From Dysgonomonas sp. HGC4 (lineage in GTDB: Bacteria; Bacteroidota; Bacteroidia; Bacteroidales; Dysgonomonadaceae), in the NCBI RefSeq assembly GCF_001261715.1, contig NZ_CVRU01000058.1:1-62246 (forward strand): 62,246 nt of DNA, read 5' to 3'. The translations under genes and the position numbers were made by a program. This document shows positions 5,670 to 58,877 of this stretch, in pieces; within the stretch, counting starts at the first letter, position 1, and every line of letters begins with the position of its first letter. Below the pieces are notes generated by a model. That model was given only the letters and a program-made list of their open reading frames with translations, made no database searches and was not told the DNA's origin.

Positions 5670-5684
5670 AAGGTCTCAGACCTT
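5670..5684. repeat. Dispersed palindrome copy A, between def and tRNA-Pro
   Basis: AAGGTCTCAGACCTT, a perfect copy (7-bp arms around one base). It lies 73 bp after the def-like stop codon and 20 bp upstream of the tRNA 5' end. Confidence 0.85.
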
Positions 5685-5757
5685 TTACTATTTTGGTGAG
5701 TATAACAATTATAGATTACTAAAGTTTCAATCTATTTTATGTTTATGGAAGATCATA

Positions 5758-6372
5758 TTATTCTTTATCCTCAGGACAAAGCTTGTCTATAAAGAGAATC
5801 CCTTGTAGGTGATCAAATTCATGTTGAAAAATAATTGCTGTAAAATTACCTGTGCGCGAATATCCTTCTAGTCGTTCTTTTACCAGATTTCCGTTTTCGT
5901 CTGTGTATTCTACTTCAACCCACGGGTATCGGATCGAGTTTCCACTGATACCTGGAATAGATAAACAACCATCGCGCTCAAAACAGATAGTTTCTTCGGG
6001 ATGCTTTACTATTTTGGGGTTTATAGCTACTGTAACAGGATAATTAGGTTGATCGATACGGGTAAAAAGAAATACATTTCTTGCTATACCTACTTGCGGT
6101 GCAGCAATGCCTACTCCAGATTCAGAAGCCATAGTTGCTTTTAGGCGATCAATTAATAATTTAAGATCACCTACATTATCTGTATTTTCAATATCAGAAC
6201 ATTTTTGTCGCAGAAAAGTAGAATCTTGCTGATCTGTAATTTTTAAAACTCGAAATGGAGTTTCCGATGTTCCATCGTTTATCAAATCTTTTTCGTATTG
6301 TGTAAATTGCGCCATACTTCTTGATGAAAATAACGTAAAACCTATTAGTAATATAGTTGCGAATAATTTCAT
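5758..6372 (-). CDS. def: Peptide deformylase with an N-terminal signal peptide
   Basis: A 204-residue peptide deformylase, a metalloenzyme that removes the formyl group from N-terminal Met. All three catalytic motifs are present: GVGIAAPQ (86-93), DGCLS (134-138, metal ligand Cys136; the usual first residue is Glu, here Asp) and QHEFDH (183-188, ligands His184 and His188 with catalytic Glu185). Unusually, the first 21 residues look like a cleavable signal peptide (MKLFATILLIGFTLFSSRSM-A) and about 20 further residues precede the normal start of the fold, so the enzyme may be exported. It follows argB by 95 bp on the same strand. Whether a cytosolic deformylase exists elsewhere cannot be seen. 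Confidence 0.88.
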   Translation of the reverse strand: MKLFATILLIGFTLFSSRSMAQFTQYEKDLINDGTSETPFRVLKITDQQDSTFLRQKCSDIENTDNVGDLKLLIDRLKATMASESGVGIAAPQVGIARNVFLFTRIDQPNYPVTVAINPKIVKHPEETICFERDGCLSIPGISGNSIRYPWVEVEYTDENGNLVKERLEGYSRTGNFTAIIFQHEFDHLQGILFIDKLCPEDKE

Positions 6373-6457
6373 ATAGGTGGAGAGATTAGAATTTGATGTT
6401 GTGCCTTAGTAAAGTAATAACTAAATATGTTTGTTATACTTACACAAGCAATAGGAA

Positions 6458-6473
6458 ATCTAAAATTTTAGAT
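6458..6473 (-). terminator. Palindrome at the argB stop codon, possible terminator
   Basis: ATCTAAAATTTTAGAT is a perfect palindrome containing the argB TAA stop (6468-6470). The stem is A/T-rich with no separate loop, so terminator function is uncertain. It is unrelated in sequence to the AAGGTCT family but sits at the same kind of site. Confidence 0.35.
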
Positions 6474-7241
6474 AATAGTAGTTCCTTTTCCTTTTCCAAT
6501 TTCAGAAGCTTGTGTGATTACAACTTCACTTACGCCTTTTTCTATTGATCTGAAAGCATTCTCCAGCTTAGGAAGCATTCCTCCTTGGATAATTCCATCC
6601 TTCACATATTTTTGATAGCTAGCCTTGTCTAATTGTGGTATTACACTATTATCGTCGTGCTCATCCATCAATACACCTTTTTTCTCAAAGCAATATACCA
6701 AGCTTACATCATAGTATGCCGACATTGCTTGAGCTGTTTCGGCTGCCATAGTATCGGCATTAGTATTTAGCATATTACCTTGCCCATCGTGTGATAGAGG
6801 TGCTATAATAGGTACAATATTCTGGTCGATCAGTAGTTTCAAAACATCTGCCTTTACTTTCTTTACATCACCCACAAAGCCATAATCAATGTCTTTAACG
6901 GGGCGTTTTTCGGAACGGATTATATCCATATCAGCTCCTGTCAATCCCAAAGCATTTACTCCAAGAGATTGTAGGCCTGCTACAATATTTTTATTAACCA
7001 ATCCGCCATATACCATGGTAACCACTTGTAGAGTGTCACTATCGGTGATGCGCCTTCCATCTACCATTTTACTTTCTATGCCAAGACGTTCGGCTAATTT
7101 GGTCGCAGATCTGCCACCTCCGTGTACTAGTATTTTAGAGCCTTGTATTGTAGAAAAATCGTGAAGTAGTTGCTTAAGTGTATCTTCTTCTTCAACTATT
7201 TTACCACCAACTTTTATAATTGTAAGTTTATTTAATGACAT
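6468..7241 (-). CDS. argB: Acetylglutamate (or succinylglutamate) kinase
   Basis: This 257-residue amino-acid kinase phosphorylates N-acylglutamate in the second step of arginine synthesis, in the cytosol. Visible blocks are the N-terminal KVGGKIVEE, LVHGGGRSAT (phosphate-binding glycines), GLTGADMD and a C-terminal GGMLPKLENAF. In Bacteroides fragilis the arginine pathway is known to run through succinylated rather than acetylated intermediates, so the true substrate here may be N-succinylglutamate; that is inference from relatives. No other arg gene adjoins it. The stop codon lies inside a 16-bp palindrome at 6458-6473. Confidence 0.92.
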   Translation of the reverse strand: MSLNKLTIIKVGGKIVEEEDTLKQLLHDFSTIQGSKILVHGGGRSATKLAERLGIESKMVDGRRITDSDTLQVVTMVYGGLVNKNIVAGLQSLGVNALGLTGADMDIIRSEKRPVKDIDYGFVGDVKKVKADVLKLLIDQNIVPIIAPLSHDGQGNMLNTNADTMAAETAQAMSAYYDVSLVYCFEKKGVLMDEHDDNSVIPQLDKASYQKYVKDGIIQGGMLPKLENAFRSIEKGVSEVVITQASEIGKGKGTTII

Positions 7242-7320
7242 ATTTCGATGTATAAATTTATTTAAATAATGTATTCGTAAAGTTATGCCTAACTGCGTTT
7301 CTTTTATGCTAAAGCCGAGA

Positions 7321-7337
7321 AAGGTCTGATACTCTTA
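7321..7337. repeat. Dispersed palindrome copy B, at a lipoprotein stop codon
   Basis: AAGGTCTGATACTCTTA is a degenerate copy with one extra base in the right arm. It overlaps the TAA stop (7335-7337) of the minus-strand lipoprotein gene. Copy C lies in front of the same gene. Confidence 0.6.
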
Positions 7338-7943: not shown

Positions 7944-7954
7944 AATGATATTTT

Positions 7955-7967
7955 AGGTCTTAGACCT
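7955..7967. repeat. Dispersed palindrome copy C, upstream of a lipoprotein gene
   Basis: AGGTCTTAGACCT, perfect 6-bp arms around one base. It ends 11 bp before the start codon at 7943, inside the predicted 5' UTR. Confidence 0.8.
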
Positions 7968-8002
7968 CCTTTTATTGTGATCGTAAATTCTTATTACACT
8001 TA

Positions 8003-8010
8003 CAAATATA
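8003..8010 (-). promoter_or_regulatory. -7 promoter box for the lipoprotein gene
   Basis: On the minus strand this reads TATATTTG, matching TAnnTTTG; no clear -33 box. The predicted leader is about 55 nt and contains palindrome copy C. Confidence 0.45.
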
Positions 8011-8097
8011 ATAAGTCAGTTTGTAACTTTAAAAATATAATTACAATTTAGGTTATAAAGGGTACAACAGCCAATATGATTTTCGCCTCTAAATGCA

Positions 8098-8129: not shown

Positions 8130-8202
8130 CAGGAAAATCAAAAAGTAATTATCAAAATACCTGTCTTATTTCATACAGATAAATTTGCAATTTGTTTCTT
8201 TC

Positions 8203-13530: not shown

Positions 13531-13550
13531 GCTTCTGTTTACTAACTCTA

Positions 13551-13563
13551 GGGTCTCAGACCC
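13551..13563. repeat. Dispersed palindrome copy E, upstream of the pseudophosphatase gene
   Basis: GGGTCTCAGACCC, perfect 6-bp arms around one base. The outer pair has changed together from A-T to G-C, which keeps the pairing. It ends 20 bp before the start codon at 13530. Confidence 0.75.
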
Positions 13564-13668
13564 GTTTTATTCTCTATCCAAGGGTAAAAGCGACTATCAG
13601 CTAGTTTCTGAAAGGCGGCATTTCATACTTTCCGTTATCTACTAGGATGCCAATTTATTAAAAAATAG

Positions 13669-16490: not shown

Positions 16491-16510
16491 GGGTGTATAA
16501 TTATACACCC
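16491..16510. terminator. Perfect 20-bp palindrome, terminator or operator
   Basis: GGGTGTATAATTATACACCC is perfectly palindromic. It lies 31 bp downstream of the fkpA-like stop and 83 bp upstream of the transglutaminase-fold start. There is no strong T-run (TTTGCC on the minus strand), so it could equally be an operator. Confidence 0.45.
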
Positions 16511-16528
16511 CTTACTAAAGCTATAAAA

Positions 16529-16543
16529 AAGGTCTGAGACCTT
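16529..16543. repeat. Dispersed palindrome copy F, at the FKBP stop codon
   Basis: AAGGTCTGAGACCTT, a perfect copy. Its last two bases are the first two (on the plus strand) of the TAA stop complement (16542-16544). On the minus strand it is followed by TTTT, so here it could also act as a terminator. Confidence 0.9.
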
Positions 16544-17555
16544 ATTTTTCTATACCAAGAAGTTCTACTTCAAATATCAGATTCGAGTATGCAGGTATAG
16601 GTCCTCCATCTCTGTCTCCGTAAGCAAGGTCGTAAGGAATATAAAGCATCCATTTAGAACCTACAGGCATCATTTGTAGAGCTTGGGTCCATCCCGGAAT
16701 TACTTGTGTAACACCAAATGTGATAGGTTCGCCACGATCTACACTGCTGTCGAATACTGTTCCGTCAGTTAAAGTTCCGTGATAGTGTACTTTAACTTTG
16801 TCTTCGGCAGTAGGAATAGCTCCTGTACCTTGTGTGATTACTTTATATTGAAGTCCATCAGGCAGAGTTACAACACCATCTTTGGTTGAGTTTTCAGCCA
16901 TAAATTTCTCTCCTGCTGCAATTTTTTCTGCGTTTACTTGTTTCTTTTCTTCTTGCTCTTTTTGTTGTAGAGCATTTATTCTGTTTTGAACCATTTCGTT
17001 GCTATTAGCAATAAGTATAGGTTCTTTTTTAATAGCATTTGTTAAACCTAGCAGAATTGCTTGTTTATTTAGTTCTACCGATTCGTCATTACCCAATACT
17101 TGTTTCGAAAATTCGGCAGTCATTCTATTTAGTTGATCACCAACTTCCAGACCTTTGCCATATGCGAAGTTTTGTTCTGCTGCTTGAAGACGTTCTCCGA
17201 TACCTTTAAGAAGCATTTCTATGTTTTGAGTATTGCTAACAAGAGCAGAATCTAATTTAGAACTCAATTCGTTATTTAACCTTACTTTTTCTTCAGGAGT
17301 AGCAGCATTAGCTATCAAGGCATTGTACTTTGAGCTTATTGCTGTAGTATCAGTTATTACGTTCAATTGTACCAGATATTGTTCAAGACCTTGCTCGGCA
17401 AGGCTTACTCCATAAGCATATAAAATAGAGTCGTTTGCTGTTTGTAAAGAAACCGGGTTTATTTGTTTAACCGCTTCTTTTTTGTTTTTTTTCGCATACA
17501 CTACAGAAGTGCTTATAGATGCTAGTAGTAAAGCTGATAGAAAGATCTTTTTCAT
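16542..17555 (-). CDS. FKBP-type peptidyl-prolyl cis-trans isomerase
   Basis: A 337-residue periplasmic folding factor of the FkpA/Mip type. It has a signal peptide (cut near residue 21, VVYA-KK), an N-terminal helical dimerisation region (about 30-215, with a coiled-coil segment NALQQKEQEEKKQVNAEKIA) and a C-terminal FKBP domain (about 230-337). FKBP residues visible include VKVHYHGTLTDGTVFDSS, VIPGWTQALQMMPVGSKW and the closing LIFEVELLGIEK. The helical part is longer than in E. coli FkpA and may hold two related segments. The gene is monocistronic; palindrome copy F covers its stop codon. Confidence 0.9.
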   Translation of the reverse strand: MKKIFLSALLLASISTSVVYAKKNKKEAVKQINPVSLQTANDSILYAYGVSLAEQGLEQYLVQLNVITDTTAISSKYNALIANAATPEEKVRLNNELSSKLDSALVSNTQNIEMLLKGIGERLQAAEQNFAYGKGLEVGDQLNRMTAEFSKQVLGNDESVELNKQAILLGLTNAIKKEPILIANSNEMVQNRINALQQKEQEEKKQVNAEKIAAGEKFMAENSTKDGVVTLPDGLQYKVITQGTGAIPTAEDKVKVHYHGTLTDGTVFDSSVDRGEPITFGVTQVIPGWTQALQMMPVGSKWMLYIPYDLAYGDRDGGPIPAYSNLIFEVELLGIEK

Positions 17556-18903: not shown

Positions 18904-19073
18904 CCGAAAAATTGACAACTATTTTTCAGTCGCAGATCTTTTTATTGATCTGGTAGTTATAGCATGGGTGATTATATGTCATTATAAAGAATATCATTTT
19001 TCATCCTATAACTTATTTTAGGAGTCTGTATACGATTATATATCAAAGTTATGCGTAAATCAAAATAAATTAC

Positions 19074-22103: not shown

Positions 22104-22118
22104 AAGGTCTGAGACTTT
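22104..22118. repeat. Dispersed palindrome copy G, at the rdgB stop codon
   Basis: AAGGTCTGAGACTTT, one mismatch in the right arm. It overlaps the TAA stop of rdgB (22117-22119). With copy H it brackets the overlapping gldN-rdgB pair. Confidence 0.8.
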
Positions 22119-22701
22119 ATTTTCTCAGAAATAAAACCAATTGTTCTACGGCTTTAGCTCTATGGCTTATTCTGTTTTTATCTTCAAGGGTTAATTCTGC
22201 AAAAGTTTTATCGTATCCGTTGGCTTGAAAAACAGGGTCATATCCAAAGCCGGATGTTCCTTTTGGTGATGTTGTAATGACTCCTTCTATTGTACCCTCG
22301 AAAAGATAACGCTTTCCATCTAAAATGAGAGCAATTACGGTTCTAAATCGTGCCTTCCGATTGTCCTTACCTTCTAATTCTTTAAGAAGTTTCTCTACAT
22401 TATCTTCCGAGCTTTTGTGTTCACCGGCATATCTTGCAGAATATACTCCTGGAGCATTATCCAAAGCTTCTACTTCTAAGCCTGTATCGTCAGCAAAACA
22501 GTTCTTGTGATAAGTATTCCACAAATAGTCTGCCTTTATCATGGCATTTTCTTCCAATGTATCGCCTGTTTCTGGAACATCGGCATCGTCGCCAAGATCT
22601 TTTAGACTTAATATATCGTAGTACTTGCCTAGTTTGGCTCTTACCTCTTCGAGTTTATGCTCGTTATTTGTCGAAAATATAAGTGTCTTTATTCTTTTCA
22701 T
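22117..22701 (-). CDS. rdgB: Non-canonical purine NTP pyrophosphatase (RdgB/HAM1)
   Basis: A 194-residue housecleaning enzyme that hydrolyses (d)ITP and XTP to the monophosphates, keeping these bases out of DNA and RNA. The family signature is clear: [15 protein letters not shown] near the N-terminus, [25 protein letters not shown]-type block in the middle (Asp catalytic pair), SGFGYDPVF and SHRAKA near the end. Its start codon overlaps the last base of gldN, so it is translated from the end of the T9SS operon, although its job is unrelated to secretion. Confidence 0.93.
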
Positions 22702-23759
22702 TAGTTTCTCTTTCTGTTTCTCATACTACGTGAAGGAGCCGATTGAGATTTTGCCTCTTTCTGAACAGTTGCTCTGGTAGTACTTGTTGTGCTGTTGGCT
22801 GTTGGAGCATTCTTTATGCTTGGACCTTTGCCTTTGTTGTTAGCTTGGGTGGCAGCATTATTTGCTGCAATAGAATCATTATACACCCACAGATTATCAT
22901 TAAATTCTTTCAGCTGAGCTTCGATTTTCTTTTGTGCTTCTTTTCTTTTTGCTTCATCCGGATATTGCTGAGCCAAAGTTAGATCACGCACATTAGTAGT
23001 TTTCTCGATAGTCCCATCAAATAGGTGTTTGATGAAGTAATCGTTGATAGTCATGGTTGTTGCATTATTCAGACTCGATAGCATGATAGGCATACGTGAT
23101 GTATAGGGTCTTATGTTTTCATAAGGAATCCAGAACATCGGATAACGACTTCTATCAACACCAAAATCATCTTGTCTGACAATTACAGGGCATATAGCCA
23201 GTGTTTTTATATCTACAATAGAATTATTTTTGTCGAAATACCAAGCTTCTTTTACATAATAACCCAATACTTCGTTGCTAGGCACATCTACATCTTCCAC
23301 AAGATACTTTCCGTTTTCTTGTTGATGCATTATTTCGAAACGTTCTAATACATCTTTAAAAGTTTCCCTATTTTCTTCATCGAAAACTTCAGTACCATAT
23401 GGTTGATATTTATAGACAGAGATGTCTCCATCTTGAAGGTGTCTGAATATCAAAGTAAATAGATTGGTACGCTCTCCAATAGGTGTTACAGGATAATAAA
23501 GAGTTGCATTTTTTTCTTTTTCTAAGTCGATAAATCGATAAATCTCACGTATCCAAGGAGCATTATCTATCTCCTGAGTTTGCGATTCGTTCATTATTTG
23601 GGCTCTGACAGTCAATGGAGGTTTCCCCGAATTGTTCTGCTGATTTTGTCGCTTGGCAATACGCTCACGCAACGACGACTCCTGCTCTTGTGCAGAAAGT
23701 GTCTGAGTGATTAGCAAACCACATAGCCCTATAGTAATTGTTAGAAATAATCTTTTCAT
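22701..23759 (-). CDS. gldN: T9SS ring protein GldN/PorN
   Basis: A 352-residue periplasmic component of the type IX secretion system that forms a ring with lipoprotein GldK under the outer membrane. It has a signal peptide (cleavage near residue 23, LSAQE) and a GldN-type core: [41 protein letters not shown], and [12 protein letters not shown]-like segments. The C-terminal 50 residues are a Ser/Thr/Asn-rich basic tail absent from the core fold. It is the last T9SS gene of the operon, with palindrome copies I and H in the 114-bp gap between gldM and gldN. Confidence 0.93.
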
Positions 23760-23790
23760 ATATTTTTGTTCTAATCGAATTCCTGTCTTT

Positions 23791-23805
23791 AAGGTCTGCG
23801 ACCTT
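23791..23805. repeat. Dispersed palindrome copy H, upstream of gldN
   Basis: AAGGTCTGCGACCTT, one central mismatch. It ends 31 bp before the gldN start codon, inside the T9SS operon and 55 bp from copy I. Confidence 0.85.
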
Positions 23806-23860
23806 CTTGTATAAATAAAATTTCGCTAATTCTGGTTATTATATCCAGCCGAAACAATAA

Positions 23861-23875
23861 AAGGTTTGCAACTTT
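23861..23875. repeat. Dispersed palindrome copy I, at the gldM stop codon
   Basis: AAGGTTTGCAACTTT, a degenerate copy (the outer pairing AAxGTT/AACxTT is kept). It overlaps the gldM TAA stop (23874-23876). Confidence 0.65.
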
Positions 23876-25412
23876 AGTTAATCCTTACCTCAATAGCTGT
23901 GAGGTCTCTTTCTACACCGTCTTTTCCTCTTACTTTTACCTCAGTTATAAAAAAGGTTTTTCCTCTCGCCAATTGTCTGATCTGAGTTTTTTGTCTTTCA
24001 GAGAAATTACTTCCATCAGATACTTCACGGACAGCATTTCCCATGGCATCAATAAGTACAGTAGTAAATTTCAACACGGCAAATTGTCTGTCCAATAATC
24101 CGTCATCAATAGATGCTTTTACTCCGGTAGCATTTACGATAACCGATTTAGAGATTCTACCTCCTTTATATCTTTTCATGTTTCCATCAGCATCGGCATA
24201 TTCTATGTACGGAGTAGGGTCGGGTAGGAGACGTACTCTGAATTCCTGATCACTTACAAAAGTACTTCCGTTAAATACTGATATTTTCATATTGGTTCCG
24301 GCTTTTGCAGGCTTTGCAATCCAGTTCTGTCCCGATTTAGTAATCGCTCCGTTAGTTGCTGTAACACGTAACTGATCGTTTGACATACCCGGAACGGATA
24401 TCGTGAGCTTATTATCTTCTCCCTGATACAATACATTCGCCTCGGCTACTTGTATAGTAGTCATACGTGGTACAACGTGGTATTCGCTTTTAAACGGACG
24501 GGTAATAACCTCTCCATCGGGTGTACTGAGCGTAACCATCCCTGAGAATACTTTATTGATACCAACGCCTCCTGCTCCAATTTTAAATTCACCATTCGCA
24601 TTAATCGAGGGTAAACTGAATGTTGGACGTTTGGTAGTATCTATTGCAGTAAGTACTACACGACCTTCGTATGTTCCTCCCTCCATTATGAATTCCGATT
24701 TGGGAACAACTTCTGCTTGTAAACTATTTACACGAAAATCTTTTGCTCCTATCTGATTATAAAGGTCAGCTAATACTTCGCCTTGTGTGGCGCGTATATC
24801 GCTTTGTATTTTAGTTAGCATAGTAACTGTAACTGAAGTAGGCATTTGTTCGAATAATGCTTCTTCCCAGTTTTTATTGTCCAGATTACCCCTTTTCGGA
24901 TTATCTGTGTTAAGTCTGCTTTTTATAATGTCTTTTCTGGATGTTCCAGTGATTAGATTGATAGCTTGCTCACGATATAGATCTATTGATGATTTCAGCT
25001 TTTTAGCCTCATTATCTATACCTACCAGCATGATATCGGTTGAGGCATCAATATTTTCTCGGTTGATTATATTATTCAAATCCCCTTTTTCTCCGTCAGC
25101 TTTTTTTACAATACGGGTCTTTAAGTCTTGAATATGGTTATATAATAGATCTGATTGTTGAGAAAATTGAGCAGCAGGAAGATACCATTGTTCTGCTTTT
25201 ACGGGATTCTGGTTGTTTATATCTGTGAGGCTATTAAAAACGAGTTGGTTTTGAGCCTCCGAACTTTTTATAGTTTGGTTCAATCCTTCGTCTACCATGT
25301 CGAAGCCATCAAGTACCTCTTCGGGTAAGTTGATAGCAAGCATAGCGATAAAAACCAGATACATCAGGTTTATCATTTTTTGTCTTGGAGACCTTGGATT
25401 AGTTGAAGCCAT
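23874..25412 (-). CDS. gldM: T9SS motor shaft protein GldM/PorM
   Basis: A 512-residue inner-membrane protein with a single N-terminal transmembrane helix (about 14-33, LMYLVFIAMLAINLP) and a long periplasmic part. It is the rotary shaft that couples the GldL proton channel to the GldKN ring. The N-terminal MASTNPRSPRQKMINLMYLV is typical, as is the order of four periplasmic domains, a helical D1 followed by beta-rich D2-D4 (for example GTYEGRVVLTAIDTTKRPTF, then KYKGGRISKSVIVN). Full length. Copies I and J of the dispersed palindrome flank it. Confidence 0.95.
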   Translation of the reverse strand: MASTNPRSPRQKMINLMYLVFIAMLAINLPEEVLDGFDMVDEGLNQTIKSSEAQNQLVFNSLTDINNQNPVKAEQWYLPAAQFSQQSDLLYNHIQDLKTRIVKKADGEKGDLNNIINRENIDASTDIMLVGIDNEAKKLKSSIDLYREQAINLITGTSRKDIIKSRLNTDNPKRGNLDNKNWEEALFEQMPTSVTVTMLTKIQSDIRATQGEVLADLYNQIGAKDFRVNSLQAEVVPKSEFIMEGGTYEGRVVLTAIDTTKRPTFSLPSINANGEFKIGAGGVGINKVFSGMVTLSTPDGEVITRPFKSEYHVVPRMTTIQVAEANVLYQGEDNKLTISVPGMSNDQLRVTATNGAITKSGQNWIAKPAKAGTNMKISVFNGSTFVSDQEFRVRLLPDPTPYIEYADADGNMKRYKGGRISKSVIVNATGVKASIDDGLLDRQFAVLKFTTVLIDAMGNAVREVSDGSNFSERQKTQIRQLARGKTFFITEVKVRGKDGVERDLTAIEVRIN

Positions 25413-25459
25413 ATAATATTGTTATAGAACGAATATTCTTTGTTGTGTGAAATATAAAT

Positions 25460-25474
25460 AAGGTCTTAGACCTT
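25460..25474. repeat. Dispersed palindrome copy J, upstream of gldM
   Basis: AAGGTCTTAGACCTT, a perfect copy in the 137-bp gldL-gldM gap. It ends 47 bp before the gldM start codon. Confidence 0.9.
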
Positions 25475-25549
25475 TTTATTGCTTTGTTTTGCTCTGATTA
25501 CCTGAGATAATCAAAGCCATAAAATGTTGCAATAATGTTGTTGACATTA

Positions 25550-26722
25550 TCAAGGTTGAGGATCGTTACCTATTGTATTAGGATTAAAGCCTCCGCCCAT
25601 ATTCATGTTACTAGTCATAGCTTGCAGCAAACGTGCATATACCTTGTTCAGTTCGGTAAGTTGCTGAGCCATTTTTTCTGTTTCGTTTTTAAATATAGAG
25701 CTATCTACAAGTGATCCTCCATATAATTTTTTGATACGGTCTAAGCCTGCATTAATCTCTTCGATTGTATGAATCTGACCACTTACTCCCTTCAACTGTA
25801 TTTCGTATATAGTATTTAATCCCGAAATATTACGATTGAGAGTTTCCATTTGAGTAACATATCCTTGAGTATTTGTTCCGATGCCATCCGAATTATCTAT
25901 AATGGTTTGGAATGAACCTAACAGAGACTCAGATATTTTACCCAACGACTCGGTTACTTGTGCAAACTTAGCCATGTTATCAGACATGTGAGACATTTGA
26001 TCAACATACTTTGCAGAAGCTTCCACAACATTGGCTCCATCAAGAACCACAGCCCCACCAGTAACTATTGTACCGCCGGATACTGATCCTCCGCCCGTGC
26101 TTGAACCTGCTGGTGCATATTGATTTCCTCCGGATACGTTTGAAGAAGTTCCCGAAGAAACAGTACCGTCACCACCTATTATAGTTGTGCCGCCACCTGA
26201 GTTTCCTCCTCCATAGTTATTATTTCCACCACTATTTCCACCGCCACTATTACCACTTTGAGGCATATTGTTGTTACCGGTGTTATTGTTGTTATTATTA
26301 TTAACAGAATTACCCGAGTTTACAGCATTACTTCTGCCACTATTGTTAGTAGAGCCTCCGTTGCCTCCTTGTTGTGAAGGTGTAGATGTTTGTTGTATGG
26401 CTGGTCCACTTTGTTGTTGTATTTGTGCTCTTTCGGCTTTTGGGATAAAACCCTCTTCATCCACCAAAGCAGGATACACTTCTTCCCATTTGTATTCCTT
26501 AGCAGGTTTTTCGAATGCCGACAATAAGAATACAATAGCCTCGGTTATCATACCGAACATAAGCATCTGATTACCGAAAGGAAGGTGAAGAATCTTGAAC
26601 ATCGCACCCAGAATAACGATAGCAGCACCTACACTATAAACGACATTGAAGAAGCGTTTACCGTTGTTACTGTCTAAATATTTTTCAAGAAAGTTTTTAT
26701 ATCGTCTGTACTTTTTACCCAT
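25550..26722 (-). CDS. gldL: T9SS proton-channel protein GldL/PorL with a long low-complexity linker
   Basis: A 390-residue stator-like protein that with GldM turns proton flow into motion. Two membrane helices lie at about 24-45 and 53-70. Glu61 in the second (ITEAIVFLLSAF) probably corresponds to the essential transmembrane Glu of GldL. Residues about 100-215 are a Gly/Asn/Ser-rich low-complexity run (poly-N and GGG clusters), then a helical C-terminus (about 220-365). Flavobacterium GldL is much shorter and I know of no comparable insert there. I start at MGKKYRRYKNFLEKYL, the conserved beginning, not at the upstream ATG at 26743. Confidence 0.93.
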   Translation of the reverse strand: MGKKYRRYKNFLEKYLDSNNGKRFFNVVYSVGAAIVILGAMFKILHLPFGNQMLMFGMITEAIVFLLSAFEKPAKEYKWEEVYPALVDEEGFIPKAERAQIQQQSGPAIQQTSTPSQQGGNGGSTNNSGRSNAVNSGNSVNNNNNNNTGNNNMPQSGNSGGGNSGGNNNYGGGNSGGGTTIIGGDGTVSSGTSSNVSGGNQYAPAGSSTGGGSVSGGTIVTGGAVVLDGANVVEASAKYVDQMSHMSDNMAKFAQVTESLGKISESLLGSFQTIIDNSDGIGTNTQGYVTQMETLNRNISGLNTIYEIQLKGVSGQIHTIEEINAGLDRIKKLYGGSLVDSSIFKNETEKMAQQLTELNKVYARLLQAMTSNMNMGGGFNPNTIGNDPQP

Positions 26723-26812
26723 GGTTGTACTGTTTTTAAGCAAAAGAAAGTATTTAGTTATGTATTTAAATTATAACAGTTTATTTCTGTTATAGTTGAT
26801 CAAGTAATAAAC

Positions 26813-26826
26813 AGGTATGAAACCTT
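26813..26826. repeat. Dispersed palindrome copy K, after the gldK stop codon
   Basis: AGGTATGAAACCTT, a degenerate copy (AGGT/ACCT arms). It abuts the tandem TAA TAA at the gldK end (stop at 26828-26830). Confidence 0.65.
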
Positions 26827-26827
26827 A

Positions 26828-28252
26828 TTATCTTTTTGATCTGGCAAATCCTATTTGAGTTCTCACACAGCGGAATCCGATGTAGGAACGAGGCTGATTC
26901 TGAAATTCAGAATCTCTCATATCACCACGAATAAACCTACCTACATCTTTCCATGAACCTCCTTTTATAACCTTTTTCTTAGCGGCATAAGGGTCTTCTA
27001 TGGCTGCGTTATATCTATATTGAGGATTAAGATCATTCATTACTTTACTTCCGGCTTCGTTATAAGTTGTAGATGTCCATTCAGAGACATTTCCAGCCAT
27101 ATCGTACAAACCAAATGCATTGGGTGAATAGCTACCCACGCGAGAGGTTATAAGATTACCGTCTTTAGTATAATTACCCTCTCCCGGTTTGAAGTTGGCC
27201 ATAAAGCATCCTTTTTCGGATTGAGTACTTTCGGAATCCCAAGGATACTTGTTTTCTGATTTTCCACTTCTGGCTGCAAATTCCCATTCACCTTCGGTCG
27301 GTAATCTATAAGGTTCTATACTACGTCCTCTGGTTCCCATTCCCATTTTAAAGAACATGGTTCTCCATTCGCAAAATGCCGTAGCCTGCTCCCAAGTTAC
27401 ACCTACTACCGGATAGTCGTTATAACCCGAATGAGAGAAATACATACGCATATAAGGCTCGTTATACGCATTGTTAAAATCGTTCACCCAAACAGTTGTA
27501 TCGGGGTAAATGTTAACGATTTTGGTATTTAGGAAATCGAATAACGAACTAAGGGGACGGTTGATTGTCATATTAACAGGTTTTCCGTTTTCATCAAGAA
27601 AAGCAGTATCCTTAGAAATCATAATCATTTCATTCGGATCAACCTGTATATCAGTATTCAAAACACGTTGAGCAGGGTTTAATCTATTGCGGCGTTTTGC
27701 AGCCTCTGTATGATCAAACCATTCGTATCTGAAATTAAATTGTTCGGGATCAAGACCTCTTTCTCCTGTGATAGGATTTACTTCGGTCAAACTCAATATC
27801 GCACGTTCTTCGTCTTCATTAGGACGTTTAGGGATTGGTCTTTTCCAATTGAGGTATGGCTTTACAGGGTCTCCATAACGATCTTCTGTAATTTTGTAAG
27901 TTTCATCACCTCCGAATGCAGGGTCAGCCAAACGTTCGCGAAGAATGGAGTCACGTACCCAATATACAAACTGACGGTATTCGGAGTTCGTTATCTCTGT
28001 GTCGTCCATCCAGAAAGCATCAACCGATACTCCTTTGGCGTTGGCAGTTATACCCCATAAAGAGTCACTGTCGGCAGGTCCCATAGCAATAGAACCACGT
28101 GAAACCAGAACCATTCCATAAGGACTGGATTCTGCCCATGATGAACTTCCGATGCCTACCAGTTCACCTCCTACGCTTCCCGCACCTCCCGGTTTCCCGC
28201 AAGAGGTTGTAAGCATCAGGACGGCGATAGATGCAAAAAGTAAATTCTTCAT
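26828..28252 (-). CDS. gldK: T9SS lipoprotein GldK/PorK
   Basis: A 474-residue outer-membrane lipoprotein that anchors the periplasmic GldKN ring of the T9SS. The signal peptide has lipobox TTSC (Cys18 of the protein from the ATG at 28252; an in-frame ATG 11 codons upstream is less likely because the signal peptide would be buried). The body is a formylglycine-generating-enzyme/sulfatase-modifying fold: DAFWMDDTEITNSEYRQFV, YPVVGVTWEQATAFCEWR, RLPTEGEWEFAARSG, FGLYDMAGNVSEWT and VIKGGSWKD. This fold is structural here, as in other GldK. It ends in tandem TAA TAA. Confidence 0.94.
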   Translation of the reverse strand: MKNLLFASIAVLMLTTSCGKPGGAGSVGGELVGIGSSSWAESSPYGMVLVSRGSIAMGPADSDSLWGITANAKGVSVDAFWMDDTEITNSEYRQFVYWVRDSILRERLADPAFGGDETYKITEDRYGDPVKPYLNWKRPIPKRPNEDEERAILSLTEVNPITGERGLDPEQFNFRYEWFDHTEAAKRRNRLNPAQRVLNTDIQVDPNEMIMISKDTAFLDENGKPVNMTINRPLSSLFDFLNTKIVNIYPDTTVWVNDFNNAYNEPYMRMYFSHSGYNDYPVVGVTWEQATAFCEWRTMFFKMGMGTRGRSIEPYRLPTEGEWEFAARSGKSENKYPWDSESTQSEKGCFMANFKPGEGNYTKDGNLITSRVGSYSPNAFGLYDMAGNVSEWTSTTYNEAGSKVMNDLNPQYRYNAAIEDPYAAKKKVIKGGSWKDVGRFIRGDMRDSEFQNQPRSYIGFRCVRTQIGFARSKR

Positions 28253-28316
28253 ATAATTTATTGAGAGTCCGGATCTCTTTGTCATAAAAGTCTTGTTTCT
28301 GTATTAGTTATAATCA

Positions 28317-34286: not shown

Positions 34287-34375
34287 AATCCCGATATTTT
34301 AAGAAAATAAAAGTACTTGATAATATATTCTAGAGTCATAACAGTCTATCGTTTTGTACCTGATAAGTATAAAAT

Positions 34376-34389
34376 AGGTATGAGACCTT
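34376..34389. repeat. Dispersed palindrome copy M, at the MBOAT stop codon
   Basis: AGGTATGAGACCTT, one mismatch (A for C in the left arm). It overlaps the TAA stop of the MBOAT gene (34388-34390). Confidence 0.75.
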
Positions 34390-35800
34390 AAAATTGAAAA
34401 TAAATAAATGAACCACTCGTTCCTGAATTTGTAATTACAAAAAATAAAAGAATTGCATAAAGTATATATTCTTTCTTTTTTAAGATGAACCAAAATTTAC
34501 TATCTCTATATAAATACAACATATGGTAAATGATAACAGGAATTGAATATAAAATAATATACATATTCAGTTTTACATTACTTTGTATAAAGACATTGTT
34601 TGCCATCGACTCAAAGTATTTGATAACATGGCTAAAGTCGGGTAATTTAAATAGTAGCCAAGCCAATGTAACCATCGTAAATACAAAGAATCCTTTAATT
34701 ACAAGAAGAAATCGGGGGAGCTTTATTTTGATATTGTCGTTTGTAAGTCTTTCTATTGCTAACATTCCTCCATGGAATGCACCCCAAGTAGCGTAGCTCC
34801 AACCTGCACCGTGCCAAAGTCCGCCAAGTATCATGGTAAGTAATAGATTGAAATAAGTTCGCCATTTTCCTTTGCGATTACCACCCAAAGGGAAATATAA
34901 ATATTCCATCAAGAAAGTAGAAAGAGAAATATGCCATCGTTTCCAAAACTCCTTGAAAGATGTAGATATATAGGGGAAGTTAAAGTTCGTTTGAAAATCG
35001 TATCCGAATAGTTTAGCCAAGCCTATTGCAATTAATGAATAGCCTGCAAAATCGGCAAAGATCTGGATAGAATATCCAAATAACATTGTAGATAGATCGA
35101 TTGTAGAATATTTTTCAAAGAAAGGATAACTGATCCAAAAAGTAAAATTCTTAAGATTATCTGCAACAACCATCTTTAAGAAGTATCCAACGATGAGGTT
35201 TTTAACCGCACTTTCCCAATTTATCTCTTTGAAGCGTTTATCCATTATTTGAGGATAAAAATCATGAGCCTTCAAAATAGGACCTGCTATAAGGTGTGGA
35301 AAGAATGAAATGAAAAACAAAGTTCGCTGAGCGTGTTGTAGTAGCGATGAAGGGATGAATGTTTTAGACTTTTCATTCGCATCTTTATCTCTCCATACAT
35401 CTATCAATAAGCTTATTCCCTCGAAAGTAAAGAATGAAATACCTATAGGAAGCGGAATCATAAGTAGGAAATGTCCTACTGAGCTATCGGGGGTGAAAAG
35501 CGTGGCTGATATTAATGGGCTATACTTGAAGAAAGCCAATCCGAGAACATTAAGAATAACACCTGTTGTAGCAACTACTTTTCTTTTCTGTGGATTACCA
35601 TATACTACATAATAGCTGGTAGCAATATTCAGTCCCGCAGAAAAAAGTAAAAGGAGTGTAAACCAGGGTTGATCGTATGCATAAAAGATCAAACTGGAAA
35701 TCACCAATATAGATACCTGATGTTTAGATACCTTGGGTAAATAATACAGGATAAAAGTTATAAGGAATAGAATGAGAAAAGGTACACTTGTAAATAACAT
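34388..35800 (-). CDS. MBOAT family O-acyltransferase (AlgI/DltB-like)
   Basis: A 470-residue polytopic membrane protein, about 11 helices. Family marks include an FPHLIAGPIL motif (about 167-176, the substrate-tunnel block), FADFAGYSLIAIGLAKLFGYDF, FWKRWHISLSTFLMEYLYFPLGGNRKG and GLWHGAGW with the conserved histidine. MBOAT proteins of this branch take an acyl group from a cytosolic donor and pass it to an extracytoplasmic acceptor. With the SGNH-like gene downstream it probably forms a two-protein O-acetylation machine. Confidence 0.9.
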   Translation of the reverse strand: MLFTSVPFLILFLITFILYYLPKVSKHQVSILVISSLIFYAYDQPWFTLLLLFSAGLNIATSYYVVYGNPQKRKVVATTGVILNVLGLAFFKYSPLISATLFTPDSSVGHFLLMIPLPIGISFFTFEGISLLIDVWRDKDANEKSKTFIPSSLLQHAQRTLFFISFFPHLIAGPILKAHDFYPQIMDKRFKEINWESAVKNLIVGYFLKMVVADNLKNFTFWISYPFFEKYSTIDLSTMLFGYSIQIFADFAGYSLIAIGLAKLFGYDFQTNFNFPYISTSFKEFWKRWHISLSTFLMEYLYFPLGGNRKGKWRTYFNLLLTMILGGLWHGAGWSYATWGAFHGGMLAIERLTNDNIKIKLPRFLLVIKGFFVFTMVTLAWLLFKLPDFSHVIKYFESMANNVFIQSNVKLNMYIILYSIPVIIYHMLYLYRDSKFWFILKKKEYILYAILLFFVITNSGTSGSFIYFQF

Positions 35801-39897: not shown

Positions 39898-39984
39898 CAT
39901 CTCAAATCTAAGTAAACAAAGGTAATTACTGAGATGTTTAAATACATAACAGTTTATCATTGTTATGCTTGTCAAAATTTTAAA

Positions 39985-39999
39985 TAGGTCTGAGACCTT
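39985..39999. repeat. Dispersed palindrome copy N, upstream of aguA
   Basis: TAGGTCTGAGACCTT, one outer mismatch. It ends only 6 bp before the aguA ATG, inside the predicted ribosome landing region. Confidence 0.85.
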
Positions 40000-40005
40000 A
40001 GGATA

Positions 40006-41052
40006 ATGAAAAAAGAGAAAGAAAAATCATACACTTTGCCCGCAGAGTGGCATCCCCAAAGTGCAATTCAGTTAACATGGCCTCACTATGGAACAGATTG
40101 GGATTATATGCTCGAAGAAATAACTACATGCTATATAAACTTAGCACGGATAATTCTTCAATACGAAAAACTAATTATTGTTTGTCGTGATGATGCGGCT
40201 GTAAAATTGAGATTGAATGTTGACGAAAGTCTTCTTCAAAATCTTATTTTGGTAGAACTACCAACAAATGATACTTGGGCGCGCGATCATGCAGGGATTT
40301 CGGTTTTTGACGAAAACAATAAAAAATACGTATTAGATTTTACATTTAATGGTTGGGGACTTAAGTTTCCATCTAATTATGATAATCAGATAAACAGAGG
40401 TTTGTTTGTTACTAAAACTTTTCAATCTGATGTAAAATACGTCAATAAAAAAGACTTTGTACTAGAGGGAGGAGCTTTGGAATCGGATGGAAAAGGCACA
40501 TTGTTGACAACTTCCGAATGTTTATTATCTCCCAATAGAAACTCAGCCTTCACCAAAGCTGAAATCGAAAATTATTTGATTGATATTTTTGGTCTAGAGA
40601 GAGTGTTGTGGCTGGATCATGGATATTTAGCAGGAGATGATACAGATAGCCATATCGATACATTAGCCCGTTTGTGCGATGAGCATACCATTGCTTATGT
40701 AAAATGTGAGGATCAGGCTGATGAACATTATGATGCTCTTTTAAAAATGGAGAAGCAGATTAAGAAGTTTCGTGATCTTGAAGGGAATCCTTACAAGTTA
40801 ATTACATTACCTATGGCTAATAAAGTTATTGTAGATGGACAACGTCTCCCTGCAACATATGCCAATTTCTTAATAATGAATGAGATTGTACTTCTTCCAT
40901 TCTACAATACAGACAAAGATGTAGTGGCTCTAGAGCAATTGCAAAAGGCTTTCCCAAATCGAAAAGTAATAGGGGTAGATTGCTCTGCTATCATCAAACA
41001 GCATGGGTCATTGCATTGCATTACTATGCAGTATCCTGAAGGTTTTGTGTAA
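40006..41052 (+). CDS. aguA: Agmatine deiminase
   Basis: A 348-residue deiminase that turns agmatine into N-carbamoylputrescine and ammonia. The catalytic Cys338 lies in HGSLHCITMQYP. Other family blocks are PAEWHPQSAIQLTWPH, TNDTWARDHAGISV (Asp pair), VLEGGALESDGKGTLLTT and LDHGYLAGDDTDSHIDTLAR. With aguB downstream (18-bp gap) it forms the two-step agmatine-to-putrescine route. Copy N of the dispersed palindrome sits directly before the start codon, where it could hide the ribosome site if folded. Confidence 0.95.
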   Translation: MKKEKEKSYTLPAEWHPQSAIQLTWPHYGTDWDYMLEEITTCYINLARIILQYEKLIIVCRDDAAVKLRLNVDESLLQNLILVELPTNDTWARDHAGISVFDENNKKYVLDFTFNGWGLKFPSNYDNQINRGLFVTKTFQSDVKYVNKKDFVLEGGALESDGKGTLLTTSECLLSPNRNSAFTKAEIENYLIDIFGLERVLWLDHGYLAGDDTDSHIDTLARLCDEHTIAYVKCEDQADEHYDALLKMEKQIKKFRDLEGNPYKLITLPMANKVIVDGQRLPATYANFLIMNEIVLLPFYNTDKDVVALEQLQKAFPNRKVIGVDCSAIIKQHGSLHCITMQYPEGFV

Positions 41053-47948: not shown

Positions 47949-48674
47949 TTGATGAGAAGACGTAAGCATGAAGATAGAAGCAAGATATATATTCTCCTGT
48001 TAGTTTTCATGGGACTGATTTCTTCTGCGAATAGCTTTTCTCAAGAGTATCAATACGAAATAGGAGGTATGACCGGAATATCTTCGTATATGGGAGATGC
48101 AAATAAGACTAACCCATTTCAGAATCCTAATTTTGCACTTGGAGCAGTATTGAGATATAATAAAAACTTCAGATGGGCTTACAAGGGGAATATTCTGATT
48201 GGCGGCGTTTCTGGTGATACCCGTAAATCGGGCAATGTTTTTCCGAATCAGCAAAATACTTCGTTTAAAAGAACGTTTTATGAAGTAGGAGGGCAGATCG
48301 AATACAACTTCTTCCATTATAGTGATAAATATCAGTATCTTGGAACGAGGCGGTTTTCTCCTTATATTTTTACAGGATTGGGACTTACGGTTGGTTCGGG
48401 AGACGAAACTTTTTTGGGGATGAATTTGCCATTGGGCATGGGCCTTAAATATAAATGGAAAGATCGCTTAAATCTAGGATTTGAATTTTCGTTCCGAAAA
48501 CTATTTGGTGACTCGTTTGATGTAACTTCTAAAGATGGAGGTTTATCTTTAGATGATCCGTATAATATAAAGAGTAGCTTTTTCAAGAATAAAGACTGGT
48601 ATATTTTGACTATGTTCTCAGTCACTTGGGATTTTGGTGTACGTAGCAAATCGTGCGTAGATAGTTTATATTAA
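47949..48674 (+). CDS. porG: T9SS outer-membrane protein PorG (DUF6089)
   Basis: A 241-residue outer-membrane beta-barrel. It has a signal peptide (cleavage near 31, SFSQ-EYQYEIGG) and eight alternating strand segments, the DUF6089 pattern: GGMTGISSYMGDANKT, NPNFALGAVLRYNKNFRW, RRFSPYIFTGLGLTVGSG and the closing VTWDFGVRSK. In Porphyromonas gingivalis PorG is needed for T9SS and is followed by uppS, bamA and two ompH genes; the same order occurs here, which is the main support. The start could be the next ATG at 47952. Confidence 0.85.
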   Translation: MMRRRKHEDRSKIYILLLVFMGLISSANSFSQEYQYEIGGMTGISSYMGDANKTNPFQNPNFALGAVLRYNKNFRWAYKGNILIGGVSGDTRKSGNVFPNQQNTSFKRTFYEVGGQIEYNFFHYSDKYQYLGTRRFSPYIFTGLGLTVGSGDETFLGMNLPLGMGLKYKWKDRLNLGFEFSFRKLFGDSFDVTSKDGGLSLDDPYNIKSSFFKNKDWYILTMFSVTWDFGVRSKSCVDSLY

Positions 48675-48736
48675 GTATTTAACGGTACTATTACTTAATA
48701 CAGCTAAGGGGGCGAATTACTAATAAAAGCATTAAA

Positions 48737-48751
48737 AAGGTTTAAGACCTT
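48737..48751. repeat. Dispersed palindrome copy O, upstream of uppS
   Basis: AAGGTTTAAGACCTT, one internal change (T for C). It ends 25 bp before the uppS start codon, in the gap between porG and uppS. Confidence 0.8.
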
Positions 48752-48776
48752 AATTCATATATAAAGAGAAAAATAG

Positions 48777-55097: not shown

Positions 55098-55098
55098 G

Positions 55099-56921: not shown

Positions 56922-56947
56922 CAATTGTATGTATTGCTTCGAAAATA

Positions 56948-56986
56948 AAAAAGGGCTTTGGTTAAATTTCAACCAAAGCCCTTTTT
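56948..56986. terminator. Shared bidirectional terminator (permease/corA)
   Basis: AAAAAGGGCTTTGGTT pairs perfectly with AACCAAAGCCCTTTTT over a 7-nt loop. It sits between convergent genes and has T-runs on both strands. Confidence 0.92.
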
Positions 56987-57043
56987 CTGTATATATTAGC
57001 GTATATGGGTAGACGCTTTTTCACGCAATTTAATTATAGAGCG

Positions 57044-57988
57044 TTATAGCCACCTTTTTCTCTTGAAGTATACAAGTATACCTCCCGAAGAGGCTAACAT
57101 GAATACAATAGCTACAATATAGCCATATTCCCATTGCAATTCGGGCATGATAGCAAAGTTCATCCCATAGATGCTTGCAATAAGGGTAGGGGGCATAAAG
57201 ATGACCGATATAATGGTAAATATCTTAATGATCTTATTCTGTTCGATATTAACAAACCCGAGGAATGTATCTTGTAAATAGTCAAGTCTGTCGAAACTAA
57301 ATTTGATGTGTTCGAGTAGCGAATTTATATCTTTTACAATGATGGTAAGTTTGCCATGTAGCTCTCTGTTGATTAATTCGCTTTTCAACATACTTGATAC
57401 GGCTCGTTGCTTTTCAATAATATTTTCACGAAGCATCATCGTCTTTTCCTGAAGGTCTTTGATTTCCATCAAAAGCTCTTCATCGGCTTCCTCCATGGTA
57501 AGGGTATTACTTAAGGTGGTAATCTTTTGAGTCATTTCCTCAATCATGTCAGCATCTACTTCAACACGTGTTTCCAACAGGGCAACAAATACATGGTAGC
57601 CTGTAGGATAATTGCGCGGATTGGCTGATATTTTTTTTACAGTCTCCTGAAATGAAGTTAGATCCTCGTCACGTACAGTAATAAGAATATTATTCTTAAG
57701 AATAAATGAAACCAGTTCTTTGTCAAAATTGGGGCGTAAGAAGTTGAAATTGACTACCAGCGAATCGTACGTTTCGATGTATCGGGATGACATCTCGATC
57801 TCGATCATCTCTTCTTCTTCCTGAATATATATTTTCAGATAGTCTTCTAATTCGTTTTCTATTTCTTCATCAACATTGTTTAAGTCTATCCATAAAAAAT
57901 TCTTTATAGGATTAGTCTTTAAAAACTCGATGCTGCGACTTATACGAATTACGTTGTCTTTGTGATAGAACAATCTTACTTCAGACAT
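57044..57988 (-). CDS. corA: CorA family magnesium/cobalt transporter
   Basis: A 314-residue Mg2+ channel. A long cytosolic helical funnel (1-245) is followed by two C-terminal helices; the first ends with the GMN selectivity motif (IYGMNFAIMPELQW) that caps the pore. The last residues KRKRWL are basic and cytosolic. Lengths and motif match CorA and the motif is intact. It lies 48 bp upstream of rsmA on the same strand and probably shares its transcript. Confidence 0.95.
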   Translation of the reverse strand: MSEVRLFYHKDNVIRISRSIEFLKTNPIKNFLWIDLNNVDEEIENELEDYLKIYIQEEEEMIEIEMSSRYIETYDSLVVNFNFLRPNFDKELVSFILKNNILITVRDEDLTSFQETVKKISANPRNYPTGYHVFVALLETRVEVDADMIEEMTQKITTLSNTLTMEEADEELLMEIKDLQEKTMMLRENIIEKQRAVSSMLKSELINRELHGKLTIIVKDINSLLEHIKFSFDRLDYLQDTFLGFVNIEQNKIIKIFTIISVIFMPPTLIASIYGMNFAIMPELQWEYGYIVAIVFMLASSGGILVYFKRKRWL

Positions 57989-58023
57989 AATAAGTATTTA
58001 GTTATGAGTTACTGGTTACAAGT

Positions 58024-58038
58024 AAGGTCACAGACCTT
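58024..58038. repeat. Dispersed palindrome copy P, at the rsmA stop codon
   Basis: AAGGTCACAGACCTT, one mismatched pair next to the centre. It overlaps the TAA stop of rsmA (58037-58039), between rsmA and corA. Confidence 0.85.
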
Positions 58039-58852
58039 ATTCTTTTCGCTGGATGCCTGCGTCTTCTGCACCTTGTGGCATGTGTTCTCGTGTGAGATTC
58101 GTCAAATATACAAACTCCTCTACTGACAATTGTTCGGGACGTTTATCAAAAATAGGATCAGCATATATATTGTTATCTTTACCCAACAGCGGTTTCATCG
58201 AATTACGCAATGTTTTGCGACGTTGGTTGAAAGATGTTTTAATAACGGTTTTGAATAATTTTTCATCACAGCCTAAACTTTCGCGGTTATTACGCACCAG
58301 TCGTATTACGGCGGATTTGACACGGGGAGGCGGATCGAATACGACTTCACTCACCGTGAATAGGTATTCAATATCATACCATGCTTGAAGAAGTACACTT
58401 AGTATTCCATATGCCTTTTTTCCAGGTTTAGATGCAATACGTTCGGCAACTTCTTTTTGAAGCATACCCGAACAGCAGGGGATGTGTTCTTTATAATCGA
58501 GTACCTTGAAGAATATCTGAGACGAAATATTATAAGGGTAGTTACCTATAATACAAAATTGATCGGGATAAATATCAGTAGGATTCAATTGAAGAAAATC
58601 TCCTTCAATAATATGATCTTTAAGTGTAGGAAAATGTTCGTTTAGATAAGGAACCGACTCTCTGTCGATCTCAATAACTGTAAGATCTCGGTTTTTTTCG
58701 AGTAAGTATTGGGTGAGAACACCCATCCCCGGACCAACTTCTATAATGGGAGTATCCGGAAAATTATCTAACGTATCGGCTATTTGCTTTGCTATTTGCA
58801 AATCCTTCAAAAAGTGTTGTCCTAGAAATTTTTTTGCTCTTACATCTCCCAT
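58037..58852 (-). CDS. rsmA: 16S rRNA dimethyladenosine transferase
   Basis: A 271-residue methyltransferase (KsgA) that adds four methyl groups to two adjacent adenines near the 3' end of 16S rRNA, a late check in 30S assembly. Motif I is [15 protein letters not shown] and the catalytic NLPY-type block is [12 protein letters not shown]. The C-terminal helical domain ends in the basic GIQRKE. The start is just inside [13 protein letters not shown], the usual beginning. Palindrome copies P and Q bracket the gene. Confidence 0.95.
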
Positions 58853-58862
58853 CTATATCCTT

Positions 58863-58877
58863 AAAGTTTCCGACCTA
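58863..58877. repeat. Dispersed palindrome copy Q (degenerate), upstream of rsmA
   Basis: AAAGTTTCCGACCTA, a degenerate copy recognised with the help of its site, 10 bp before the rsmA start codon. Confidence 0.45.

Follow-up and report, generated by a model that had tools for sequence, protein, structure and literature searches.

A gene-border palindrome of Dysgonomonas as the probable terminal hairpin of a short mobile element inserted at TA

The window analysed here is the whole 62,246-bp contig NZ_CVRU01000058.1 of Dysgonomonas sp. HGC4 (assembly GCF_001261715.1). It carries the porN-porM-porL-porK-porP type IX secretion operon (22701-29264), a tRNA-Pro gene and genes of the Ham1 (22117-22701), MBOAT, PAD_porph (40006-41052) and RrnaAD families. 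The closest match to its PorK is that of D. alginatilytica (98% identity), which places the window in Dysgonomonas. Between the genes lie copies of a 15-bp palindrome, AAGGTCTNAGACCTT, which we call H1 as a hairpin. A sequence-only reading of the window had listed it at 17 sites and taken it for a dispersed element that marks gene borders. Our analysis indicates with high confidence that this palindrome forms the hairpin at the 5' terminus of a mobile element, non-autonomous and about 95 bp long, which inserts at TA, duplicates that TA and has spread intergenically in Dysgonomonas. It is not a dedicated gene-border signal.

At up to three mismatches the pattern matched the window 16 times, where 100 dinucleotide shuffles averaged 3.2 matches and never exceeded 10, and the copies at 5670, 16529 and 25460 were perfect. 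All 17 listed sites lay in gene gaps, and at ten of them the palindrome proved to form the 5' end of a longer repeat that the profile recognised. Five of the listed positions (7955, 12451, 13551, 26813 and 34376) were one base too high. Site 7321, listed among the copies, is weak, has no element match and cannot be told from chance. The same applies to two of the three sites already called weak (12451 and 33375), but the third, 58863, belongs to a full-length element. Unlisted matches with three mismatches at 18663, 35358 and 51077 fell within open reading frames, near the chance expectation, and a codon-usage gene caller placed two of the three in genes.

Full-length elements were recognised at 26734..26828 (minus strand, E 5.6e-10), in the porK-porL gap and common to D. 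alginatilytica; at 34297..34392 (minus, E 2.5e-8), where the TA is the stop-codon TA of the MBOAT gene; at 39906..40002 (minus, E 1.7e-12), whose H1 end lies 6 bp upstream of the PAD_porph gene start; and at 58861..58957 (plus, E 9.6e-14), 97% identical to its orthologue and covering site 58863. The porL-porM gap holds an element at 25456..25558 on the plus strand, reverse to the operon, delimited by the alignment of copies (E 1.3e-10 for 25456-25535); it was not found in that gap of D. alginatilytica, D. macrotermitis or D. capnocytophagoides. Diverged elements lie at 13548..13645 (plus, E 6.3e-5, model positions 6-103, with the H1 variant GGGTCTCAGACCC) and at 48668..48756 (minus, E 0.00039, model positions 3-93), and the 5' part of another, a weak match, at 23826..23879 by the porM stop (minus, E 0.0097). 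Upstream of tRNA-Pro, a 5' end and body with an unrecognised 3' part span 5666..5729 (plus, E 3.9e-8, model positions 4-68 of 107; H1 at 5670-5684). Only the 5' end, H1 with its T-rich tail, is present at 16510..16547 (minus, E 4.6e-5), and here the TA is the stop-codon TA of the minus-strand gene 16542-17555.

Orphan H1-like palindromes stand at 7954..7968 (two mismatches, no element match), at 22104..22118 by the stop of the Ham1-family gene, at 23791..23805 in the porM-porN gap, where the D. alginatilytica orthologue differs solely in the loop, and at 58024..58038 by the stop of the RrnaAD-family gene, with the same stem in D. alginatilytica. Possible decayed elements were matched weakly at 18929..18997 (plus, E 0.01), a site absent from the earlier list, and at 6390..6453 (minus, E 0.025), a body with an unrecognised 5' end. 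Within the type IX secretion operon, copies or fragments occupied three gaps and varied between species. The porM-porN gap (23791-23875) contains two H1-like palindromes 55 bp apart, and a like pair occurs in the D. alginatilytica gap. Short tandem tracts such as GTTACAAGTTAATAGTTACAAG and TAACTGATAACTG (D. alginatilytica, L068) are also frequent in gene gaps, porL-porM among them; these vary between species and are a third kind of intergenic turnover.

A larger sample comprised 2.175 Mb from two Dysgonomonas genomes, the window's own (G000) and that of a close relative, D. alginatilytica (G002); the G000 part came from contigs in which a perfect palindrome was known. The assignments of G002, of G004 to D. 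macrotermitis and of G005 to D. capnocytophagoides are probable ones. Genes were called with the simple codon-usage caller, by which 78% of the sample is coding. Searched with up to two mismatches, as the sequence-only reading had proposed, the own genome gave 378 palindromes against 32 for a reversed control palindrome; at one mismatch the counts were 193 and 3. In the sample, 293 of 304 palindromes at up to two mismatches were intergenic, compared with one of 18 reversed-control matches, the other 17 falling within genes. The palindrome is therefore real, dispersed and well above chance, as had been claimed, and its copies do not fall in coding bodies as often as at borders. A recognisable longer repeat contained 232 of the 304, including 70 of the 73 perfect ones.

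The flanks of the palindromes aligned on one side only. Alignment of 52 copies, together with a profile search, revealed a conserved unit of about 95 bp that starts with TAAGGTC and ends with TTACTTA (consensus TA[AGGTCTNAGACCTTTTTATTGCTTTGGYAAGTATAAYAAC...GTTATA...AAAATATAGCATTAAATATTTTCTATTACT]TA). H1, with a 6-bp stem, a 3-base loop and then a T-rich tail, forms the 5' hairpin of this unit, so the palindrome, proposed as the element itself, is one end of it only. The profile gave 346 matches in the sample at E <=0.1: 208 full-length, 121 5'-only, 15 3'-only and two with neither end. A stricter set of 188 full-length copies (E <=1e-4) was used for the borders and for placement. The left TA was kept in 154 of these copies, the right TA in 144 and both in 116, and conservation stopped sharply there. 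Among the 116, T preceded the left TA in 66% and A followed the right TA in 52%, a mild preference. Rfam gave no match besides one tRNA in the window at the gathering score, and none in a 20-kb G002 stretch (L055) at E <=1. The unit is short, non-coding, multi-copy and dispersed, and shows insertion polymorphism with a TA target site duplication, as a miniature inverted-repeat transposable element (MITE) does. No long terminal inverted repeats were found between its ends; since a MITE is defined by longer repeats of this kind, we call the unit MITE-like.

Insertion polymorphism was seen in both directions of comparison. Among 30 full-length G000 copies with a syntenic gap in G002, 14 were shared, 15 absent and one in the other orientation; among 41 full-length D. 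alginatilytica copies compared with G000, the counts were 17, 23 and one. Partial copies behaved similarly, with 10 shared and eight absent of 18 from G000, and seven shared, 15 absent and one in the other orientation of 23 from D. alginatilytica. In all these counts absent means that the syntenic gap gave no profile match, so that a copy decayed too far is scored absent, and shared includes some unlike insertions in one gap (24 shared pairs). Empty sites were reconstructed by deleting the element and one TA at shifts from -8 to +8, and a case was taken as resolved at >=78% identity. In eight of the 13 resolved cases, from 27 tested, the empty allele was rebuilt best at exactly zero shift, which is a 2-bp TA duplication.

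Copies also differed in their apparent age. A relative of at least 90% identity within the sample was found for 21 of 106 D. alginatilytica copies, and one of at least 95% for nine; none of 100 G000 copies had a relative at >=85%. In a D. capnocytophagoides sample, five of 29 copies had a relative at 85% and none at 90%. These sequence identities suggest recent activity of the family in D. alginatilytica and quiescence in G000. Two G000 contig ends, C23 (23052) and C8 (1), break where D. alginatilytica has an element copy (C1 213802-213904), and breaks of this kind in a draft assembly may have led to copies being under-counted in G000.

Some copies were composites in which the middle of the element was replaced by a second repeat, TGTAGGGG...CCCCTAC, bounded by GTAGGGG...CCCCTAC. 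Four, all in D. alginatilytica, had both ends of the inserted repeat and two, one of them in G000, the first end only (loci G002 C1 252824 and 254827, C2 3028 and 41924, C3 88605, and G000 C71, L197). Two composites at separate loci were 95% identical over 87 bp. The repeated occurrence of composites suggests that the element ends may suffice for movement.

The element is frequent in Dysgonomonas and rarer in its kin, with sister elements in other Bacteroidales families. At up to one mismatch, palindromes numbered 210 in G001, 465 in G002, 65 in G004 and 364 in G005, besides the 193 of G000; G003, a genome 62% complete, had none. Model R1 found copies in five of the six genus genomes (up to 150 scored per genome) and, among family kin, 21 in G019, nine in G023, five in G010 and two in G417, a Dysgonomonas metagenome-assembled genome. 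In G183, from another family, 13 weak matches were obtained (E 8e-5 to 9e-4), two of which align across nearly the full element length. Full-length copies per Mb of sample were 77 in G000, 120 in G002 and 72 in G005; scaled up, these densities would amount to several hundred copies per genome, with the value for G000 on the high side because its contigs were known to hold a perfect palindrome.

When 393 genomes were drawn evenly from the order, palindromes outside the genus proved most numerous in G107 (171), G040 (107), G093 (22) and G183 (21), with nine or fewer in each of the others. Model R1 matched nothing in G040, G107, G093 or G423. The first three carry a sister form when compared by eye, TAAGGTC-(mostly TTC, TTA, TAA or TTT)-GACCTT-TTTAATGTTGCTTACGCA..., often ending ...AACTTTTGTA...ACTTA; G040 and G107, with few exact copies (four and two) and no model match, were therefore rejected as hosts of the same motif and assigned sister elements instead. 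The sister elements of G040, G107 and G093, at loci L206-L214 and L225-L236, belong to three other families; they keep the AAGGTC/GACCTT end but differ in the loop and have a TTGCTTACGCA body. We suggest, tentatively and against our own expectation, that an order-wide Bacteroidales superfamily may be defined by a TA-AGGTC-NNN-GACCTT hairpin and a short ...ACTTA end, moved by an unrecognised TA-specific enzyme that would need a hairpin at one end only and accept swappable central cargo.

Placement was examined for the 188 copies. A position in a gene gap could be given to 187 and none lay inside a gene; under a looser rule, one copy counted as inside a gene and one as lying at the edge of a sequence. 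Orientation was mixed: 84 copies lay stop to start, 58 start to stop, 35 start to start and nine stop to stop, with one at an edge and one inside. Of the 187 copies, only nine lay in convergent gaps, which account for 13% of gap DNA, and 35 in divergent gaps. The 121 5'-only copies showed no bias towards positions after a stop (start to stop 57, stop to start 39). Both element ends read TA-AG, and insertion into a TAA stop thus regenerates TAA, which accounts for many overlaps with stop codons. After snapping end positions to the nearest TA within 3 bases, a 5' end facing a stop shared its TA with the stop codon 27 times in 68, where the number of TAs in the gap would predict 11.2; for 3' ends the coincidence was six of 51 (6.4 expected). 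With all ends pooled and unsnapped, 19 were counted against 12.1. An excess confined to 5' ends hints that H1 and its T-rich tail are tolerated or useful just after a gene. A role in marking gene borders is not supported: insertions are kept out of gene bodies, and the TA-AG ends are compatible with stop codons.

The sequence-only reading had also suggested that pairing in the palindrome is selected at each site, from a paired outer-base change at 13551. Rates were compared over 16 copies common to both species (identity >=75%; eight other shared pairs were dropped). Differences affected 0.138 of positions in the five inner pairs of H1 (22 of 159) and 0.139 in the remainder of the element (173 of 1245); the flanks, which are probably coding in large part, showed 0.054 and 0.058 differences per site. 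None of 17 changed stem pairs went from one Watson-Crick pair to another. Equal rates and the lack of compensation argue against selection on each site, and per-site selection on the stem was rejected. Six orphan G000 palindromes could be aligned to G002, too few to be informative: the stem was the same in three, changed but still partly palindromic in two and gone in one. Paired variants do exist (GGGTCTCAGACCC, AAGCTCNNNGAGCTT), and they would fit subfamilies of a mobile source. Among copies generally, both-sided pair changes barely exceeded shuffles (12 vs 10.4 and 11 vs 9.8) and the covariation score lay above all 500 of 500 shuffles; covariation is real but modest, and would likewise fit such subfamilies. 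A strand-specific RNA structure of four hairpins, suggested at first, was rejected, since mismatches of the G.T and A.C types leaned to no consistent strand in the three hairpins counted (41 vs 44 in H1, 143 vs 65 in H2, 43 vs 79 in H3). RNAalifold predicted no pairs on the element alignment.

These data bear on two explanations in which the palindrome acts where it stands. As an intrinsic terminator or RNA hairpin under selection at gene ends, H1 would leave the rest of the unit as ordinary 3' untranslated region (UTR). Its shape with the T-rich tail is terminator-like at 16529 and 25460, on both strands, and the excess of 5' ends at stops and of 5'-only copies would suit such a role. Yet the whole unit is repeated and its presence varies between species, copies lie in mixed orientation, convergent gaps, expected to be the richest, are poor in them, and the 5'-only copies do not favour the position after a stop; H1 moreover changes as fast as the body and its near-equal G.T and A.C counts carry no signature of a transcribed strand. 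We therefore regard a terminator as decidedly unlikely. A double-stranded operator for a global DNA-binding or nucleoid protein would account for the two-fold symmetry, the hundreds of copies and the lack of strand bias in the stem mismatches of H1. It leaves unexplained the 80 bp conserved on one side, the TA duplication and the differences in presence, and about half of the copies are not kept at orthologous places; this explanation is very improbable.

Two further explanations concern the enzyme that would move the unit. An element of the REP/REPIN type, mobilised by a RAYT (Y1 tyrosine transposase), would share the hairpin end, intergenic sites and high copy number. One Y1 gene is present in G002, whose copies look recent, and none in G000, which lacks close pairs; genes of this type occur in three of the six genus genomes and, among 30 further genomes of the order, in six of seven element carriers. 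However, they are equally common among non-carriers (17 of 23), and G005 and G107, both rich in palindromes, gave no Y1 match. None of the three genus Y1 loci had a full-length element within 1.5 kb, one (L145) having a partial body match, and the consensus has no GTAG or CGTC tag, its ends reading TAAG. To our knowledge, an enzyme of this class would not be expected to duplicate a TA. A RAYT partner was rejected, and we consider an element of this type unlikely. Y1 (RAYT-like) reading frames of D. macrotermitis (L143 ~1393-1583) and G001 (L145 ~1393-1589) contain inverted GTAGGGG/CCCCTAC words within the frames themselves. The TA duplication does agree with a MITE of the IS630/Tc1-mariner transposons, a TA-duplicating group, and RUP has been tied to IS630-Spn1 partly via TA targets in the account of PMC2229807. 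Against this origin, long terminal inverted repeats are lacking and the IS630-type DDE_3 domain (PF13358) was found in none of the six genus genomes, and an IS630 partner was rejected on that basis; such a partner may nevertheless have died out or have diverged beyond the reach of the profile. An IS630-related origin is thus possible, if doubtful.

Several observations weigh against a mobile element as the source of the palindromes. Beyond the missing DDE_3 genes and the lack of full-length copies beside Y1 loci, no autonomous copy was found in the 2.175 Mb, which samples the genomes in part. Half-pairs within 5 kb numbered four, and the only long one (G002 C1 268068-268869) was rejected as an autonomous candidate on finding that it holds an apparently ordinary gene. 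No mobilising enzyme was found and no transposase is tied to the element. Spread on phages or plasmids was discarded, with no match to one query copy in phage and plasmid collections, or to one exact pattern in viral contigs. The two ends match each other only as TAAG/CTTA, and 63 of the 304 palindromes are intergenic with no recognisable element body. In the species comparison, scoring decayed copies as absent may inflate absence; 14 of the 27 empty-site cases were unresolved, and five of the 13 resolved ones fitted better at shifts of -1, 2, 3, 3 and 7, which we read as later indels. Finally, 5'-only copies exceed 3'-only copies 8:1, and simulated decay gave about 1-2:1 at 10-40% mutation and 5:1 at 5%, the latter from just six partial copies. 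In a half-randomising control, 5' halves were detected for 151 of 188 copies and 3' halves for 108. To account for the excess, the model needs H1 retention or mosaic copies as well; mosaic copies with swapped bodies may explain part of it, and H1 retention is a further possibility.

Under the mobile-element explanation that we prefer, a trans-acting enzyme would recognise TA-AGGTC-NNN-GACC at the 5' end and TTACT-TA at the 3' end. Palindromy would persist across copies through the requirements of the mobile source, and single copies would decay freely once landed. Stop codons would be tolerated targets because a copy in a TAA stop leaves TAA intact, and the excess of H1 ends at stops may arise if H1 and the T-rich tail act as a weak terminator.

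No description of the element in Dysgonomonas or Bacteroidales was found in the open PMC literature, most subscription papers and preprints lying outside that search; the sequence-only reading, too, had named no described element of this kind. In size, TA ends, duplication and intergenic habit it resembles ERIC, RUP, Correia and CIR repeats as these are outlined in PMC2229807 and PMC10969869. ERIC (IRU, RU-1; 127 bp) is presented in PMC2229807 as a short, non-autonomous, intergenic enterobacterial element with terminal TA and a target site duplication, and PMC10969869 gives hundreds of copies in some hosts. It shares short length, non-autonomy, intergenic sites, TA termini, duplication and high copy number with the Dysgonomonas element, but belongs to another phylum and has a 7-bp terminal inverted repeat in place of one terminal hairpin and TAAG/CTTA; the likeness is one of description. 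RUP of Streptococcus pneumoniae (107 bp) shares size, TA target and intergenic location. It differs in its 9-bp terminal inverted repeats, similar to those of IS630-Spn1 according to PMC2229807, no such partner having been found for the Dysgonomonas element in the six genus genomes. Caulobacter CIR shares TA termini, the absence of terminal inverted repeats and separately folding 5' and 3' parts; in PMC2229807 it has an exposed GANTC motif and its target site duplication is listed as unknown, whereas that of the Dysgonomonas element was seen at empty sites, and here too the likeness is descriptive. REP/REPIN sequences with a RAYT, as treated in PMC3733652, share the hairpin end, high copy number and extragenic sites; they are 20-40 bp long with GTAG or CGTC tags beside the stem, unlike the untagged element of about 95 bp, beside which no linked RAYT was seen. 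The BrickBuilt MITEs of Porphyromonas gingivalis, of the same phylum, are likened by description through a strictly intergenic habit (PMC10969869) and differ in containing a minisatellite (PMC4596501).

With this element, Dysgonomonas and related bacteria have an equivalent of the ERIC, RUP and Correia repeats. It also carries a caution, that palindromes at gene borders can be the ends of mobile DNA rather than regulatory marks. If mobilisation with one hairpin and TA specificity holds true, the missing enzyme would be a concrete target. By lying at stop codons and within the porKLMN operon for type IX secretion, copies can alter 3' UTRs and operon spacing.

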